A stretch of DNA of 51,596 nucleotides from Myxococcaceae bacterium. GTDB lineage: Bacteria > Myxococcota > Myxococcia > Myxococcales > Myxococcaceae. Where the stretch lies: the NCBI GenBank assembly GCA_019686135.1, contig JADGHL010000022.1, forward strand, positions 1 through 51,596. Direction: 5' to 3'. Shown here one piece after another: positions 19,270 through 46,607 of this stretch; positions within the stretch are counted from its first letter, which is position 1; the number at the start of each line of letters is the position of its first letter. Below the pieces are notes generated by a model, which saw only the letters and a list, made by a program, of their open reading frames with translations, was not told where the DNA came from and made no database searches. The position numbers and the translations under genes are program-made.

Positions 19270-21081
19270 CTACTGGAGGTCGATCCGGACCGTCCCGTTG
19301 ACGACCATTGCCGCGGACGCGGGGGCGGAGAGGTCGAGCACGACGCGGGTGCCGCCCGCTCGCGCCCCCACCCGGACGCCTTCGACGATGGGCGCGGTCG
19401 AGGGCCGTTTCACGCTGCTTCTCGGAGAGGGGCCGCGCAGGTCGATCACCGCACGCGATGGGCCGGAGAGCACGAACGTGCGCTCGATCTCCGCTCCCGG
19501 CGCGAGGTCGAGGCGCGCGATCAGGACGCGGCCGGACCGGGAGATCGACACGGCTTCCGCCCCGCCCGCTTTGAGGTCGATGTGGGTGGAGGTGACGCCA
19601 TGCGCCGGTGCGACGGATCCACGCGCTGCCAGGGCGTCGCGATCCGCGGCCGAAGGCTTCGCCCCGTGCGCGGGAGGGGAGCCGACGGCGTGCGCCGCAG
19701 TGGCCGATCCGCGCGTGGGCTGCACGTTGGGACCCGCGGGCAGCGCCTCGTGCGCGGAGGCAGAGGCGACGGCATGTACCGCTGCGGGCGATCCACGCGC
19801 CGTCAGGGCGTTGGGATTTGCGGGTACCGCGTCGTGCTCGGGAGCAGCGGCTGCGGCGCGCGCCGTTGCGGGCGAACCGCGCGCCGCCGGCGAGTCGGGA
19901 TCTGCAGGTGCCGCGTGGTGCCCGGGAGCGATGGCTGCGGCGCGTGCCGTTGCGAGCGATCTGCGCGTCGCCGCCGAATCGGGATCCGCGAGTGCCGCAT
20001 CGTGCTCGGGAGCGACGGTGGCGGCGCGTGCCCTTGCGGGCGATCCACGCGTCGCCGGCGAATCGCGATCCGCGGATGGCGCGTCGTGTTCGGGAGCATC
20101 GGCGACGGCAGGTACCCCTGCGGCCGATCCCCGCGCGGCTGGGGAGTCGGGATCCGCAGGAAGCACCTCGTTCGCCGGAGCAGAGGTGACGGCACGTGCC
20201 GCTGCAGCCGATCCGCGCGCTGTCACGGAGTTGGGACCCTCGCGTACCGCCTCGTGCGCGGGGGCTGCTGCGGAGTCGGAATCCGCAAACACCGCACCCG
20301 ATCCGGGCGCGGGCGGAACGATTTCATGCGTTCCCGCCTCCGCGACCTCGGCCGTGCGATGCGGCGCCCGCGCATCCGGAGTCGCGTCGCGGCGGATCAC
20401 CCACAACAGGCCCACCGCGACGATCACGAGGAACGCCACCAGCACCACCGCCGTTCCCACCCGCGCCCCGGAATCCGCGGCCTCGAGCGCGGAGGCAGGT
20501 GCCGATTCCGGTGTCGGCAGCCGGGTTTCGCGATCCTCGTCCGGGTTCGATGCCCGGGGCTCGAGGTCGAGCGTCCATGTCGGTGAGGAGGCGTGCCCGG
20601 CGGCGCCGAGCTCGTTGAGGGTCGTCTGCATGAAGTCCTCGGGCGGCCTGGCTTGGGGAGCGGAACCGGCGGCCGTGGCCGGTGCGCCCGGGTCCGTCGT
20701 GGGCGCGCTCTGAATCGCGTGGGAGAGATCTTCGGGTGCTGGCGCCGCGGGGCGACGGACGAGGAAGTCGAGCAGGGCGGGGGCGCGCGGGTGGAGGAAG
20801 CGGAGGAAGCGCAGGCCGAACCCGGGGAGCCGGCCCGGCGGCGTGGGCTGGGACGGATCCGAGCTCCAGATGACCTCCGCCTCGGCGAACGGGAGCGCGC
20901 GGCCGCGGGCTTCGAGCGCCACGGACAGCTTCGTCCCCGGCGCCACCGCGACGTTGCTGCGGACGAACATTCCGCCCAGCGAGAGGTTGCCGGCGAGCAT
21001 CCGCCGCGCACGCGAGGCCGCCCCCGCCCACTGGACGTGGACCGGACGCGTGAACGGTACCCGCTGCAGTCGGTCCTTCAT
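19270..21081 (-). CDS. PilZ domain - TM - tandem-repeat linker - AMIN domain fusion
   Basis: A 603-residue multidomain protein. Residues about 1-110 are a PilZ domain with the NLSLGG motif (fits [D/N]xSxxG) and GFGLRFLRFL; a clean RxxxR motif is not seen, so c-di-GMP binding is uncertain. After a polar stretch comes one TM helix (VGTAVVLVAFLVIVAVGLLWVI). It is followed by about 7 tandem 28-residue Ala/Pro-rich repeats and finally an AMIN-like domain (FVLSGPSRAVIDLRGP, GTRVVLDLS, NGTVRIDLQ). AMIN domains bind cell-envelope material in PilQ secretins and amidases. The arrangement puts PilZ in the cytoplasm and AMIN in the periplasm. The ATG at 21081 has a GAGGTGA ribosome-binding site; a GTG at 21087 lies inside it. 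Confidence 0.82.
   Translation of the reverse strand: MKDRLQRVPFTRPVHVQWAGAASRARRMLAGNLSLGGMFVRSNVAVAPGTKLSVALEARGRALPFAEAEVIWSSDPSQPTPPGRLPGFGLRFLRFLHPRAPALLDFLVRRPAAPAPEDLSHAIQSAPTTDPGAPATAAGSAPQARPPEDFMQTTLNELGAAGHASSPTWTLDLEPRASNPDEDRETRLPTPESAPASALEAADSGARVGTAVVLVAFLVIVAVGLLWVIRRDATPDARAPHRTAEVAEAGTHEIVPPAPGSGAVFADSDSAAAPAHEAVREGPNSVTARGSAAAARAVTSAPANEVLPADPDSPAARGSAAGVPAVADAPEHDAPSADRDSPATRGSPARARAATVAPEHDAALADPDSAATRRSLATARAAAIAPGHHAAPADPDSPAARGSPATARAAAAAPEHDAVPANPNALTARGSPAAVHAVASASAHEALPAGPNVQPTRGSATAAHAVGSPPAHGAKPSAADRDALAARGSVAPAHGVTSTHIDLKAGGAEAVSISRSGRVLIARLDLAPGAEIERTFVLSGPSRAVIDLRGPSPRSSVKRPSTAPIVEGVRVGARAGGTRVVLDLSAPASAAMVVNGTVRIDLQ
19590..20220 (-). repeat. In-frame tandem repeats of 84 bp (28 residues)
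   Basis: About seven units plus a partial one, most exactly 84 bp and one 90 bp, each beginning (A/T)RGS and containing APEHDA-like and ADPDSPA-like segments. They form the periplasmic linker between the TM helix and the AMIN domain. The DNA copies are clearly related but diverged, and the reading frame is kept throughout. All length changes seen are multiples of three. Confidence 0.85.
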
Positions 21082-21163
21082 GGTCACCTCGCGCAGGACG
21101 CGATGGTGAGGCCAGAGTGGGCGGCCCGCAATTTTCCCGCTACGGCTGGCTACACCCCTGTCG

Positions 21164-21937
21164 TCACGCCCGCGCCGTGGGCGCCTCGAGCACGGGCGGC
21201 GCAGCGGGCTCGAGCGCCGCGCGGACGCGCTGCTCCTCCGCGAGATCCCTCGGTACGGACTGCAGCACCGGAGCGAGCGCCGGGTCCACGTACCTTCCCA
21301 CGCCCACCAGCACGAGGCTCACGCCCTCGAAGTCCAGAAGCGGCAGCTTGAGCGGCGCGAATCGTTTGTCCTGATACGGCGCCCTGAGGTGTTCGGGGAT
21401 CCGGTGCCACACGCGAGCGCCGCGCTCCCCCGGCCAGGGCCGCATCCCCAGCAGGAGGTAGCTGGCCACGGCGCACATGCCGAGATCGTCGTGGATGGGC
21501 CCCACGGTCTCCGGTGCGTCGAGGGCATAGGAGAAGTGGGTGTGATCGCCGTGCTCGGCGATGACGTACGAGCCCTGGGTCAGAACGCGCGCCGCCGGCT
21601 GGAATCGGAGCCCGCGCGTCCGGGTCATGTAGGTGGACGCGCCCAGGTCGTGCGAGACGTGCGAGAGCTTGCCTGCGCGATCGACATAGGACCAGAACCG
21701 CTCGCGGCGCCGCCAGCCGCCACCGCCGGGATCGGGGAGTCGCTTGTGACCCAGGAGGATCCGCCGAAAGCGGTCCCTGCCGTCGGGGTGCAGCACCAGG
21801 AACGTGCGCTGGACGTCGGCGATGCCTTCGGGGAACGGCGTCTCCACCCGAGGCTGGAACACGACGTACATCCGCCCGCGCTCGAGAAGGTCGTACGGCG
21901 GCGTGCACCCGAGGGACTCTGGCTGCATCCGGGCCAT
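21164..21937 (-). CDS. Conserved-looking hypothetical protein
   Basis: A protein of about 257 residues that I do not recognise. It has no signal peptide or TM segment. It is rich in aromatic and charged residues, with notable patches GRMYVVFQPRVETPFP, DVQRTFLVLHPDG, HGDHTHFSYAL and DLGMCAVASYLLLGMRP. The balanced composition and codon pattern argue that it is a real, folded cytoplasmic protein. The ATG at 21937 was chosen over a TTG directly before it; a third start at 21928 is possible. It lies on the same strand 82 bases upstream of the PilZ-AMIN gene and is divergent from the efflux operon, so it may be cotranscribed with the PilZ gene. Confidence 0.6.
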   Translation of the reverse strand: MARMQPESLGCTPPYDLLERGRMYVVFQPRVETPFPEGIADVQRTFLVLHPDGRDRFRRILLGHKRLPDPGGGGWRRRERFWSYVDRAGKLSHVSHDLGASTYMTRTRGLRFQPAARVLTQGSYVIAEHGDHTHFSYALDAPETVGPIHDDLGMCAVASYLLLGMRPWPGERGARVWHRIPEHLRAPYQDKRFAPLKLPLLDFEGVSLVLVGVGRYVDPALAPVLQSVPRDLAEEQRVRAALEPAAPPVLEAPTARA

Positions 21938-22096
21938 CAACCGGACAACGCCCCGTGAGGACGCCGCATTCGCGGCTGCCTGCCTGGCCGGCGCAACACT
22001 TCTTCACGATCTGCGAACGGACGCGAAACGGCTCCCCCTGGAATTTCGGTGGCGCAGATTCGTCTGGAGTGGCGTCATCACTTGTTGAGGCAACCA

Positions 22097-41640: not shown

Positions 41641-43149
41641 ATGCGTGTCCGGCTCTCGAGGTGGTGGTCCGCGCTGATCGTGACGCTGTGCCTGGGGCCC
41701 GTGGCCGCGTGGGCGGAGGCTGAGCCCGGGCGGTTCAGCGCGGGCGGCTATTTCCGGGTGATGTCGCGCCCGGACCTGCAGGGCGGAAACGGATCGCTCG
41801 GGTTCTGGAACCTCTACGGGCGGCTGTTGAACGAAGGCCCGTACGCCGCGCTGGAGATGCGCCTGGATGTGCTGCGCAACCCGGCCGGGCACCGCGATCC
41901 GTGGGCGGCGGTGCAGGCGCGGATCGAGGGCGGATCGGTGGCGAATGCGGACGCCGGCAACGGCGGCCTCGCCAACTTCCGGCTCAGTCAGCTCTACGTC
42001 CGCGCGGGGAACATCCTGTTGGATCGGGTGACCTGGCAGCTGGGCACGCAGGAGAGCTACTTCGGGGAGCTCGGCCTCTACGACATGCGCCCGGCGCAGC
42101 TCTTCGAGCAGATGCTGGGGCTCTCCGCGCGCTACGAGGTCGACCGGTTCGACCTTCTGCTCGCAGTGGGCGACTCCGGGTACGCCCTCCGTGGCAGCGA
42201 ATACGACCCGATCGCCACGGTGGGCGGTTCGGTCCGGGTCCGGCTCGTCCCCGCTCACCTGGAGCTGGGCACGGGCGGTCAGTACGCGCTCGAGCCGAAG
42301 ACGCCGGGCGACCGGTTCGCGCCGTACGACACGCCGGACATCACCTGGGAGCAGGTGGTCCGTCGCGAGGTGGTCCGTGATTTTCTCGCCGCGCACCCAG
42401 GCGAGGAGGACTTCTTCCCCAGGCCGATCGCCACGCAGGCCTCCTCCTGGAAGGTGGTGGGCTACCTCGGCTTCGGCGGCTTCGGCCCGGTGACCTGGAA
42501 CAACTTCTTCATCCACTACGCGAAGCGGCACCCGGACCGCTCATACGTCGAACATTTCAACGGTCGAGACTTCACCATCTACATCACTTCACTCACCGAT
42601 CAGCGCTACGAGCTGACCGCGGGAGACGAGGTCCAGCTCCGCCTCGTCCCCGGCCGGCTGGAAGCGGTGTGGGCCGGGCTGTACGGGCGCGACGTCAACC
42701 TCGACAACACCGTCCAGGCGGGCGAGGACAATCGCGAGTACCTCTCCACGGTGCTCCGGCTGCAGCTGTACCTCACCCAGACCACGCACCTCCTTCTCGA
42801 GAACGCGCTGGCGAAGGAGGTCTCGCTGAACGGGAACCTCTACCGGAACCACGTGGACTCGGTGTTCGAGAACGACGACGGTTTCCCCGATTCGCGCGGG
42901 CTCCAGTTCGGGGACTCGGACACTCGGATCACCTGGCAGTTCAAGACCGGCATCGTGCTGAACCCGACCGGGCCGGGGATCTACACGCGTCCTTCGCTGC
43001 GGCTGCTCTACGGGTTGCAGTACTCGACCCAGCAGCAGGCATTCGGGAGCGGCTACGTGAGCAGCCTCGACCAGTACAACGTCTTCGGCACCGGCCCCGA
43101 ACAGCACTGGCACTCGCTGGTCGCGATCGAGGCGGAGGGGTGGTTCTGA
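41641..43149 (+). CDS. Outer membrane porin-like protein
   Basis: A 502-residue exported protein. It has a classical Sec signal peptide (WWSALIVTLCLGPVAAWA), then many alternating amphipathic strands rich in Tyr, Trp and Gly (for example FSAGGYFRVMSR, LRLQLYLTQTTHLLLENALA, LRLLYGLQYS) and a C-terminal aromatic Phe after EGW, as expected for an outer-membrane beta-barrel. It resembles carbohydrate porins in size and style but I cannot assign it to LamB with certainty. Its stop codon overlaps the ATG of the GH13-CBM20 amylase gene (TGATG), which suggests it passes the amylase products across the outer membrane. Confidence 0.75.
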   Translation: MRVRLSRWWSALIVTLCLGPVAAWAEAEPGRFSAGGYFRVMSRPDLQGGNGSLGFWNLYGRLLNEGPYAALEMRLDVLRNPAGHRDPWAAVQARIEGGSVANADAGNGGLANFRLSQLYVRAGNILLDRVTWQLGTQESYFGELGLYDMRPAQLFEQMLGLSARYEVDRFDLLLAVGDSGYALRGSEYDPIATVGGSVRVRLVPAHLELGTGGQYALEPKTPGDRFAPYDTPDITWEQVVRREVVRDFLAAHPGEEDFFPRPIATQASSWKVVGYLGFGGFGPVTWNNFFIHYAKRHPDRSYVEHFNGRDFTIYITSLTDQRYELTAGDEVQLRLVPGRLEAVWAGLYGRDVNLDNTVQAGEDNREYLSTVLRLQLYLTQTTHLLLENALAKEVSLNGNLYRNHVDSVFENDDGFPDSRGLQFGDSDTRITWQFKTGIVLNPTGPGIYTRPSLRLLYGLQYSTQQQAFGSGYVSSLDQYNVFGTGPEQHWHSLVAIEAEGWF

Positions 43150-46100
43150 TGCGTCCGTCGATTCGCCACACCCTGTGGCTCGGGCCGCTGTCGCTCGTCG
43201 TGGGTCTCTTCGGCTGCATCCACCGCACCGAACCCATCCGGCTGTCCACTCCGCAGGCGGTGGCGATCGCCTTCGTGCAGGACGACGAGAACGGCGCGGA
43301 GGTGATGGACGCGCCCGAGGCGGTGAAGGAGGCCGTCCTCTCCGCGCTCGCCGCACGGAACCTCCGCGCCGAGCCGGTGGATCCGCAGCAGGTCCGTCAG
43401 GTCTTCAAAGCGGTGCGCGCGAGCGAGCGGCGGCTGGCCTGGCTGAAGGAGTCCACCGACGCGCCGTGGGCGCTGCTGGTTGAGACCCGCGCGCGCTTCT
43501 TCTCGCAGCTCGGCGGCCGGTATCGCTGGGTGGCGCTGGCCAGGCTCACTGCGCAGGACCGCGCATCCGGGGCTGCGCCCATCACCCGCGACTTCGAAGA
43601 AGGCGTGGTGCTGCAGTTCGACCACCAGCGCGCTCCCGAGGCACTGGAGATCGCCGCCCCGCGGATCGGCGATGCGGCCGGGGCGCTGTTCGACGATCTG
43701 CTCGTCGTCCCGTCGCACGCGTCGCACCGGCTTCCTCAGCCGGGGGCGATCTACTTCGTGATGGTCGACCGCTTCGCGAACGGAGATCCGTCCAACGACG
43801 GCGCCGTCGACCCGGCGGATCCGGCCGCGTTCCACGGCGGCGATCTGCAGGGCGTCATCGATCACCTCGATTCGCTCCAGGCGCTCGGCGTCCAGACCGT
43901 GTGGCTCTCGCCCATCTTCAAGACGAGGACCACGAAGTTCTTCGGCTTCGGTGCTTTTCACGGCTACTGGGTCTACGACCTCACCGAGGTCGAGCCCCGG
44001 TTCGGCGATCGGAGGTTGCTTCGACGTCTCTCTGACGAGCTCCACCGCCGGGGGATGAAGCTGTTGCTGGACGTGGTGCTGAACCACGTCGGGCCGGACG
44101 CGCCGCTGGTGAAGGAGAAGCCGGCGTGGTTCCACCACCGGGGGCCGCTGGAGCATTGGGACGATCCGGATGAGGTCCAGATGCACGACGTGTTCGGCCT
44201 GCCCGACCTCGCGCAGGAGAACCCCGAGGTCTACGCGTACCTGTTGGACGCCTCCCTGAAGTGGATCCGCGACGTGGAGCCGGACGGCTTCCGCCTGGAC
44301 GCGGTGAAGCACGTGCCGGTGTCGTTCTGGCGCCGGTACACGGCGGACGTGCGGAGGGCGGCCGGCGACGGCTTTCTGCTGTTGGGCGAGATGCTGGACG
44401 GAAACGTGGAGGTCGTCGCGCGCACCTGGCGGGAGGGCGGCTTCGACGCCGTGTTCGACTTCCCGCTCAAGTACGCCGTGGAGGAGGCGATCTGCAGGAG
44501 CGGGCCGCTGACGCACCTTTCGGCGACGCTGTCGCTGGATCGGCTCTACGCGGATCCGTCGGCGCTGGTGACGCTGGCGGACAACCATGATTTCCCGCGG
44601 ATCGTCACCGCGTGCGGCGGCGATCTGGAGAAGGTGAAGCAAGTGCTGACGGTCCTGTTCACCGCCCGCGGCACGCCCAGCCTGACGTGGGGCACCGAGG
44701 CGGCGCTGACGGGCGCGAAGGAGCCGGAGAACCGCGGCGACATGCGGTTCGATTCACAGCCGCTCGCCGGGCACCTGACGCAGTTGCTGAAGCTTCGCCG
44801 GACGCATCCGGCGCTGGTGCACGGCGCCCCGTATCAGGTCGAGGTCGATCAGGACCTCTGGGTCGAGGCGCGGATCCTTCCCGACGAGGCGGCGCTGATT
44901 CTGGTCAATCGGACGGATCGCCCCATCGAGTTGCACCCGAACGACGCCGGGCTGCGACGGCAAGCCGGCACCATCGGATACCCGGTGTCCGCGACGGACC
45001 GGGGTGCTGTGCCCGGTCCAGCGGGCGCTTACGAACGTGCCCGAGATACGCAGCAGGGCGCCGCGCCCGAACGCGCGGACGCTTACGAGCCTACGCGGGC
45101 AACGGAGCGAAGCGCTGCGCCCGATCCCGCGGACGGTTACGAAGCTCCGCGAGCCACCGATCGGGGCGCTGCACCCGAGCTCGGGGACGCTCACCGACAT
45201 GTGCGAGATACGGAGTGGGGCGCTGCACCCGTACTCGCAGACGCATACCAACCTGTCCGGGCCGCGGAGTGGGGCGCTGCACCCGTACTCGCAGACGCAA
45301 ACCAACCTGTGCGGGCCGCGGAGCGGGACGCCGCACCGGAACTCGGGGACGCATACCAACCTGTCCGGGCCGCGGAGTGGGGCGCTGCACCGGAATTCGG
45401 GGACGCAAACCAACCTGTGCGGGCCGCGGAGCGGGACGCCGCACCGGAATTCGGGGACGCAAACCAACCTGTGCGGGCCGCGGAGCGGGACGCCGCACCG
45501 GAACTCGGGGACGCAAACCAACCTGTGCGGGCCGCGGAGTGGGACGCTGCACCCGTGCTCGCAGACGCATACCAACCTGTCCGGGCCGCCGAGTGGGGCG
45601 CTGCACCGGAATTCGGGGACGCATACCAACCTGTCCGGGCCGCGGAGCGGGGCGCTGCACCGGAACTCGGGGACGCAAACCAACCCGTGCGGGCTACGGA
45701 GCGGGGCGCTGCACCCGTACTCGCAGACGCTTACGAACATGCGCGCGCTCCCGACCGGCGTGCCGCGCCCGAATTTGCGGACGCACACGACCCTGCGCGA
45801 GCTACCGATCGCGGCGCCGCGCCCCCACACACGGACGCTTACGAACCTGCGCGAGTCAGGGCGTGGGGCGCTATGCCCGAACTCGCGGACGCACGCGAAC
45901 ATGTGCGGGCGACGCACCGGAGCGCTGCGCCCGAACGCGCGGACGCCCACGAATCGGCGCACGAGATTGGGGCGCTCCCGGGCGCGCTGGCGTCGGCCCG
46001 GTGGATTCCTGCGCTCGGTGCGCACCTTGCTCCCGGCGGGGCGGTGCGGATTCCGCCGTACTCGGCAGCGGTCTGCTTCGCCAGGGCGCCCACACCCGGC

Positions 46101-46607
46101 GCCTTCGCCGCGCTACATGAGCAGGCCGAGCGGATCTGGCGTGGCACTGCGACGTCGGTGGACGTGCTGTTCCACCTGGGTAACGGTGCGTCTCCGGAAG
46201 GCGAGTTGCGGCTCATCGGCAGCGCGCCGGAGCTGGGCGGTTGGGATCCGAAGGTGGCGCCGTCATTCCACGTCATAAAGTCGGCGCAGAGCGACCTCCG
46301 CGGACCGCAAGACAGAGCGCGAACCAGCGACGGCACGCACCGCCCCGAGGTCGAGCGCGCGCTCGCTGCCGATGCAGGCTTGCGCGGGGACGCTGCGCCT
46401 TCCGGCCGCGTTGTCCGGCTGCAGCTTCCACCCGGAACCTACGAGTACAAGCTGGTCTCCACGCGCCCGGCCGCGGAGCCGGTCTGGGAGTCCGGCGCGA
46501 ACCGCGTGCTCGTGGTGCCGCCCGGGCCCGGGGGCGGACGCCTGCTCGTCGACGTCTCGCTGGACTGGGAACAACCGGCGGTCGTGGCGCGGCGCCCGAT
46601 GGACTAG
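43149..46607 (+). CDS. Lipidated GH13 alpha-amylase with repeat linker and CBM20
   Basis: A 1152-residue protein. The signal ends in GLFGC (Cys23 lipidation). Residues about 24-195 are an N-terminal domain I do not recognise. The GH13 barrel follows (AIYFVMVDRFANGD, VVLNHVGPDAP, nucleophile Asp384 in DGFRLDAVKH, acid/base Glu414 in LLGEM, and His480-Asp481 in ADNHDF). After the catalytic C-domain come 18 tandem 18-residue repeats, and then a CBM20 starch-binding domain (LIGSAPELGGWDP, LPPGTYEYKLVS, WESGANRVLVVPPG) interrupted by an insert of about 45 residues. It probably hydrolyses starch at the cell surface. The ATG overlaps the porin stop; the frame continues upstream only as a porin shadow. 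Confidence 0.88.
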   Translation: MRPSIRHTLWLGPLSLVVGLFGCIHRTEPIRLSTPQAVAIAFVQDDENGAEVMDAPEAVKEAVLSALAARNLRAEPVDPQQVRQVFKAVRASERRLAWLKESTDAPWALLVETRARFFSQLGGRYRWVALARLTAQDRASGAAPITRDFEEGVVLQFDHQRAPEALEIAAPRIGDAAGALFDDLLVVPSHASHRLPQPGAIYFVMVDRFANGDPSNDGAVDPADPAAFHGGDLQGVIDHLDSLQALGVQTVWLSPIFKTRTTKFFGFGAFHGYWVYDLTEVEPRFGDRRLLRRLSDELHRRGMKLLLDVVLNHVGPDAPLVKEKPAWFHHRGPLEHWDDPDEVQMHDVFGLPDLAQENPEVYAYLLDASLKWIRDVEPDGFRLDAVKHVPVSFWRRYTADVRRAAGDGFLLLGEMLDGNVEVVARTWREGGFDAVFDFPLKYAVEEAICRSGPLTHLSATLSLDRLYADPSALVTLADNHDFPRIVTACGGDLEKVKQVLTVLFTARGTPSLTWGTEAALTGAKEPENRGDMRFDSQPLAGHLTQLLKLRRTHPALVHGAPYQVEVDQDLWVEARILPDEAALILVNRTDRPIELHPNDAGLRRQAGTIGYPVSATDRGAVPGPAGAYERARDTQQGAAPERADAYEPTRATERSAAPDPADGYEAPRATDRGAAPELGDAHRHVRDTEWGAAPVLADAYQPVRAAEWGAAPVLADANQPVRAAERDAAPELGDAYQPVRAAEWGAAPEFGDANQPVRAAERDAAPEFGDANQPVRAAERDAAPELGDANQPVRAAEWDAAPVLADAYQPVRAAEWGAAPEFGDAYQPVRAAERGAAPELGDANQPVRATERGAAPVLADAYEHARAPDRRAAPEFADAHDPARATDRGAAPPHTDAYEPARVRAWGAMPELADAREHVRATHRSAAPERADAHESAHEIGALPGALASARWIPALGAHLAPGGAVRIPPYSAAVCFARAPTPGAFAALHEQAERIWRGTATSVDVLFHLGNGASPEGELRLIGSAPELGGWDPKVAPSFHVIKSAQSDLRGPQDRARTSDGTHRPEVERALAADAGLRGDAAPSGRVVRLQLPPGTYEYKLVSTRPAAEPVWESGANRVLVVPPGPGGGRLLVDVSLDWEQPAVVARRPMD
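44988..45959 (+). repeat. 18 in-frame tandem repeats of 54 bp (18 residues)
   Basis: Eighteen units of exactly 54 bp, consensus RAAERGAAPELGDANQPV, together 972 bp with no frame change. Central units 5-13 are nearly identical at DNA level (alternating W/R at position 5, EL/EF/VL, AY/AN), and the outer units are more diverged. The array encodes an Ala/Pro/charged linker between the amylase and its starch-binding domain. Long open frames on other strands and frames here are by-products of the repeat. Confidence 0.97.

Follow-up and report, generated by a model that had tools for sequence, protein, structure and literature searches.

PilZ and AMIN domains in one predicted inner-membrane protein: a family from uncultured relatives of Myxococcus that may link cell-wall landmarks to a signalling-type domain

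To our knowledge, the sites of action of PilZ effectors are the cytoplasm and polymer-export machines, and AMIN proteins operate in the periplasm. The polar hubs FimV and HubP carry a peptidoglycan-binding domain outside, one transmembrane (TM) helix, and a protein-binding region inside. They are unlike the protein considered here in having LysM for AMIN, no PilZ, cytoplasmic repeats, and the opposite orientation (a Pfam scan of our protein found no LysM domain). Alg44 of Pseudomonas likewise crosses the membrane by one TM helix, and its periplasmic part is a membrane-fusion-type domain rather than AMIN. Alg44 resembles our protein in its N-terminal PilZ of similar fold (Z about 11) and in its place in the inner membrane, where it belongs to a complex spanning the envelope (PMC4443731), but it keeps the RxxxR motif and binds c-di-GMP (PMC3131395). 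The Pfam scan of our protein found no membrane-fusion-type domain, and AMIN alone was found after the TM helix.

Two other comparisons concern AMIN. In M. xanthus, the AMIN domains of PilQ are needed for its recruitment to the septum and poles, and binding to the peptidoglycan of those two places is the mechanism that the authors propose (PMC10653833). PilQ is like our protein in its AMIN fold (Z 8.3), in offering the closest AMIN profile match (E 1.4e-8), and in possessing a periplasmic AMIN proposed to read peptidoglycan, but it is a secretin of the outer membrane that lacks both PilZ and any cytoplasmic part (the Pfam scan found no secretin domain in our protein). FliO proteins with AMIN or LysM come close in another way, having a periplasmic AMIN, one TM helix, and a cytoplasmic beta-rich core (PMC12403147). 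The AMIN of FliO is a lineage-specific acquisition, seen also in Myxococcota, and it matters for flagellation pattern and for the stability of FlhB, making it a tested precedent for the gain of AMIN (PMC12403147). There, however, AMIN is N-terminal, the core is FliO rather than PilZ, and the context is flagellar; the Pfam scan found no match to FliO in our protein.

The window, by which we mean the whole stretch of 51,596 nucleotides that was analysed, carries a gene whose product has PilZ at one end and AMIN at the other (Table 1). An alternative ATG at 21081, the start chosen in the preliminary description, would give 603 aa. Both domains exceed their Pfam gathering cut-offs (26.2 bits against 22.5 for PF07238, 27.7 against 20.5 for PF11741), as they do in the two relatives scanned (46.1 and 46.5 bits for PilZ), and no other family matched the protein with E up to 1. 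Beyond the PilZ domain a helix runs to about residue 111, and some 100 extra residues then separate PilZ from the TM helix, as is also the case in the closest relative (from genome G036). Hydropathy gives no second TM segment. The preliminary description had posited PilZ and AMIN in one chain with a single TM helix, and Pfam, hydropathy, and homologues of the same order all bear this out, including the C-terminal AMIN, which a domain search finds above cut-off.

Table 1. The PilZ–AMIN gene of the window and the parts of its product
Feature	Coordinates	Strand	Residues	Details
PilZ-TM-repeat linker-AMIN gene	19270..21087	-		GTG start at 21087, 605 aa
PilZ domain	20797..21063	-	9-97	Pfam PF07238, E 1e-5
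Single transmembrane helix	20395..20451	-	213-231	hydropathy, mean Kyte-Doolittle 3.18
Linker	19588..20394	-	~270 residues	Ala/Pro/Ser rich; ~seven 28-residue repeats from residue 282 (20244 downwards)
C-terminal AMIN domain	19273..19590	-	525-590 (Pfam core)	PF11741, E 2.9e-6

Relatives were sought in 60 related genomes with the window protein and in 195 genomes of one phylum, Myxococcota, with a profile of PilZ and AMIN. In 18 of the 195, at least 23 intact homologues were found that begin with PilZ and end with AMIN in a single reading frame, and it is this recurrence of the order PilZ-TM-linker-AMIN that excludes a chance origin. The carriers span nine genera and two families: eight genera in the host's family and one (G036) in a second family of the order. 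Two further genomes have the AMIN half alone, and in G031 one copy is split between contigs. A search with the PilZ profile gave 12 loci, in metagenome assemblies labelled Myxococcaceae, Archangiaceae, Archangium, Myxococcus, or Myxococcales. Within the host's family, the 195-genome search found no such protein in the genera with large complete genomes (g8, g12, g16, g24, and g26), which are probably the cultured genera of Myxococcus/Archangium type, and no plasmid-borne relatives were found. The homologues range from about 310 to 605 aa, the segments between PilZ, TM helix, and AMIN varying freely in length and composition. Trees of the PilZ and AMIN domains, made from short alignments and partly resolved, give the same clades (the window copy with G036; group B; g17 group A; and g5 group A), which is consistent with a single old fusion followed by descent. 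In the short proteins of group B (L006/L071, L027/L072, L028), the TM helix is weak, and a conserved cysteine lies about 10-15 residues past it (DPSLxC or PGLAC) that could form an intermolecular disulphide.

Close pairs show which parts of the protein are held in place. Among five g5-type sequences (L063-L067), dN spans 0.01-0.19 for PilZ and 0.02-0.26 for AMIN (dS 0.2-1.1), while the linker reaches a dN of 0.17-0.63. Both domains are thus under purifying selection in these pairs and the linker drifts, as expected for a tether between constrained ends. The more distant pair L068/L069 departs from this, its AMIN being much less constrained (dN 0.66, against 0.29 for PilZ). PilZ is the best conserved part of the protein, with 26 invariant positions that include R26 and R29 besides the residues of the motif.

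The linker of the window copy is repetitive, with a self-identity of 0.448 at period 28, compared with a maximum of 0.254 over all periods in 1000 shuffles; TRF reports the same array as periods of 84 and 168 bp. The 28-residue tandem repeat of the preliminary description therefore holds for this copy. It does not hold as a trait of the family, since the linkers of relatives are unrelated in sequence, mostly rich in Pro and Ala, and about 65-260 residues long. One of them (L063:7935-9542) also has period 28 (self-identity 0.46), in a sequence unrelated to that of the window repeat.

Lysine and arginine are more numerous on the N-terminal side of the TM helix in 15 of 15 relatives, and the family topology suggested by this bias is N-in/C-out, with PilZ cytoplasmic and AMIN periplasmic. 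The window copy has one such residue before the helix and four after, the reverse of the family bias. We nonetheless take it to be probably N-in/C-out as well, because of the topology of its relatives and because no signal peptide precedes its PilZ. The earlier placement of PilZ inside and AMIN outside is in this way supported by the relatives, against the charge balance of the very copy for which it was proposed.

The AlphaFold2 model of AMIN (mean pLDDT 92.7) shows the beta-sandwich of that domain, and its five best structural matches are all AMIN proteins: AmiC (Z 9.2), PilQ of M. xanthus (8.3), PilQ of N. meningitidis (8.0 and 7.8), and Slr0280 (7.5). The next Z falls to 5.8. Compared with PDB, the AMIN family profile lies closest to M. 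xanthus PilQ, then to other PilQ, AmiC, and Slr0280. The model of the window PilZ, built with 12 relatives (mean pLDDT 83.6), has the PilZ beta-barrel and likewise finds PilZ structures as its top matches by Foldseek and VIA. The highest VIA scores go to MotI/DgrA (Z 12.3), MapZ (11.8), PP4397 (11.7), and the PilZ of Alg44 (about 11), and the predicted fold is thus of the c-di-GMP-receptor type rather than that of the type IV pilus. The latter assignment was considered and rejected: the Xanthomonas PilZ of the PilB complex reaches a Z of just 5.3 where receptor PilZ domains reach 10-12, and its profile match is weak (E 0.04-0.07). In NCBIfam, the sole match to the PilZ part is TIGR02266, a paralogous PilZ-like domain of M. 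xanthus, and at 43.1 bits it falls short of that model's cut-off of 68.7. A TIGR02266 domain was also seen in another setting, joined to DnaK through a Pro-rich linker (L014, in G045); PilZ-DnaK chaperones have already been described in M. xanthus (PMC10313047).

The canonical receptors of c-di-GMP have RxxxR together with D/NxSxxG (PMC3131395). The window PilZ has D-RLQR in place of the former, i.e., RxxR (residues 6-9), and it keeps the latter as NLSLGG (residues 34-39), of which S36 and G39 are invariant in the family. That the protein lacks a clear RxxxR had been noticed from the window alone, and the lack turns out to be family-wide: RxxR is present in 21 of 21 members and the first arginine of RxxxR in 0 of 21. 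Position -4 is occupied by D, Q, H, E, T, V, P, or K (K in 4 of the 21) and never by R, whereas all 17 of the strongest PilZ domains in the host genome, examined as a control, keep R there. Because the first arginine is missing throughout the family, control by c-di-GMP may be weakened, altered, or indirect. It is plausible that the PilZ is of a protein-binding type, as the preliminary description proposed. Or perhaps c-di-GMP could still be bound, its register shifted, by D/NxSxxG together with the invariant R6 and R9. Nor does having the whole motif ensure binding: the available part of a study describing a set of 24 M. xanthus PilZ proteins reports that PlpA has the motif and does not bind (PMC8316039). 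That same part makes no mention of AMIN in those proteins.

Neighbouring genes offer little guidance. The window copy lies 62 bp before genes for SRAP and RsmE, and 76 bp upstream of it is a 258-aa ORF (21164-21940, minus strand) that matches no Pfam or NCBIfam family above cut-off. With homologues in just two of 59 other genomes searched, this upstream gene is not tied to the family. Most members adjoin MoxR/VWA and 2OG oxygenase genes. In the locus common to group A, genes for a cNMP-binding protein, VWA-CoxE, MoxR, a membrane protein, and the 2OG oxygenase lie on one side, and further on come an ATP-grasp gene, an alpha/beta hydrolase gene, and one for a permease of the TauE type. We set this locus aside as a clue to function, as the window copy, G036, and group B are found without it. 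Nor, in the MoxR regions examined, was a PilZ–AMIN gene found within about 10 kb on that side in the fusion-less genomes G007, G010, G021, G023, G028, G123, G129, and G139, or in the host. No pilus or division genes were found beside members of the family, and the context indicates no pathway.

What might such a protein do? The preliminary description proposed that it would connect second-messenger or polarity cues to the binding of peptidoglycan or secretins; a link to secretins, polarity, or a second messenger is at present speculative. The likeliest reading, to which we give an even chance, is an inner-membrane adaptor: its AMIN would recognise the peptidoglycan of poles or septum, and its PilZ would hold a cytoplasmic partner at that spot. 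The protein would cross the inner membrane once. AMIN, given reach by its long disordered tether, would bind peptidoglycan, probably of the septal or polar type that is thought to serve as a landmark for the AMIN domains of PilQ. PilZ would thereby be concentrated on the cytoplasmic face of the sites where AMIN is bound, and a partner from the cytoplasm or the inner membrane would dock on it. Peptidoglycan binding, the polar or septal location, and the docking role of PilZ are all inferred. Against the adaptor stand the reversed charges around the TM helix of the window copy, the want of linkage to pilus or division genes, the looser constraint on AMIN in L068/L069, and the chance that R6 and R9 serve in c-di-GMP binding after all. 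A tentative variant, which we consider possible at a lower level of belief, is a landmark-reading signalling protein: AMIN would place within the cell a PilZ that docks partners or responds to c-di-GMP, making the protein a polar hub analogous to FimV/HubP.

Perhaps information flows the other way. In an inside-out effector resembling Alg44, PilZ would bind c-di-GMP, and its state would pass through the TM helix to alter how AMIN engages the wall or some partner in the periplasm. The closeness of the PilZ model to c-di-GMP receptors speaks for this, as do the retained D/NxSxxG, two invariant arginines in the N-terminal loop, the 21 GGDEF matches in the host, and the precedent of Alg44, whose PilZ binds c-di-GMP within an inner-membrane component of a complex that spans the envelope (PMC4443731). 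It is hard to reconcile with position -4, never R in 21 members and always R in the 17 strong PilZ domains of the host, and a long disordered linker would transmit a conformational change poorly; we regard it as rather doubtful. A role related to type IV pili is unlikely. The AMIN is closest in sequence to PilQ of M. xanthus, PilZ has its weak profile match to the PilB-complex protein of Xanthomonas, and the host has both PilQ (a separate gene on contig C190, with three AMIN domains) and seven matches to ATPases of the T2SSE type. The structural scores of PilZ go against it, however, as do the lack of pilus genes nearby and the five genera in which the family was not found. We think it very unlikely that the protein is a constitutive envelope tether without signalling, its PilZ a mere folded anchor in the cytoplasm. 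The degenerate RxxxR and the long, drifting linker would fit a tether, but conservation is greatest in PilZ, where dN is low, and its invariant positions, R26 and R29 among them, suggest a binding role. As for a spurious ORF or misassembly, a thought prompted by the high G+C of the DNA and by long ORFs that overlap the gene on the other strand, we reject it as having a negligible chance of being right, given the same order in 18 genomes, the high G+C of third codon positions (0.93 over PilZ, 0.90 over AMIN), and purifying selection.

The family is probably a means by which cell-wall landmarks (poles, division site) place a cytoplasmic signalling module in uncultured relatives of Myxococcus. 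It would then constitute a direct physical link between those landmarks and a signalling-type domain, and a testable candidate for how information on polarity or the division site gets across the inner membrane. With its RxxR throughout, the family also provides a natural set of PilZ domains for probing the role of the first arginine. The parts are of known kinds; their combination, their order, and the family-wide RxxR appear to be undescribed, within the open-access literature and the one phylum covered. In the literature searched, no description of the PilZ–AMIN architecture was found, the two terms co-occurring just in unrelated entries of a single paper's reference list, in keeping with the earlier remark that the architecture was not known to its author as a described family.

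The host genome has 29 PilZ matches in all, and besides PilQ it has a second AMIN protein, of 568 aa (G000:C21, L109:1608-3314, minus strand), which has an AMIN domain near either end, two in all. No amidase domain was found in it, and its long middle, rich in Glu, Arg, and Ala, is probably helical. The window itself contains a second long repeat linker, an in-frame tandem repeat of 18 residues (54 bp) in about 16.6 copies at 45052-45946 (plus strand). The surrounding ORF (42669-46607) looks by eye like a lipoprotein alpha-amylase, in which GH13-type motifs precede the repeat and another domain follows.
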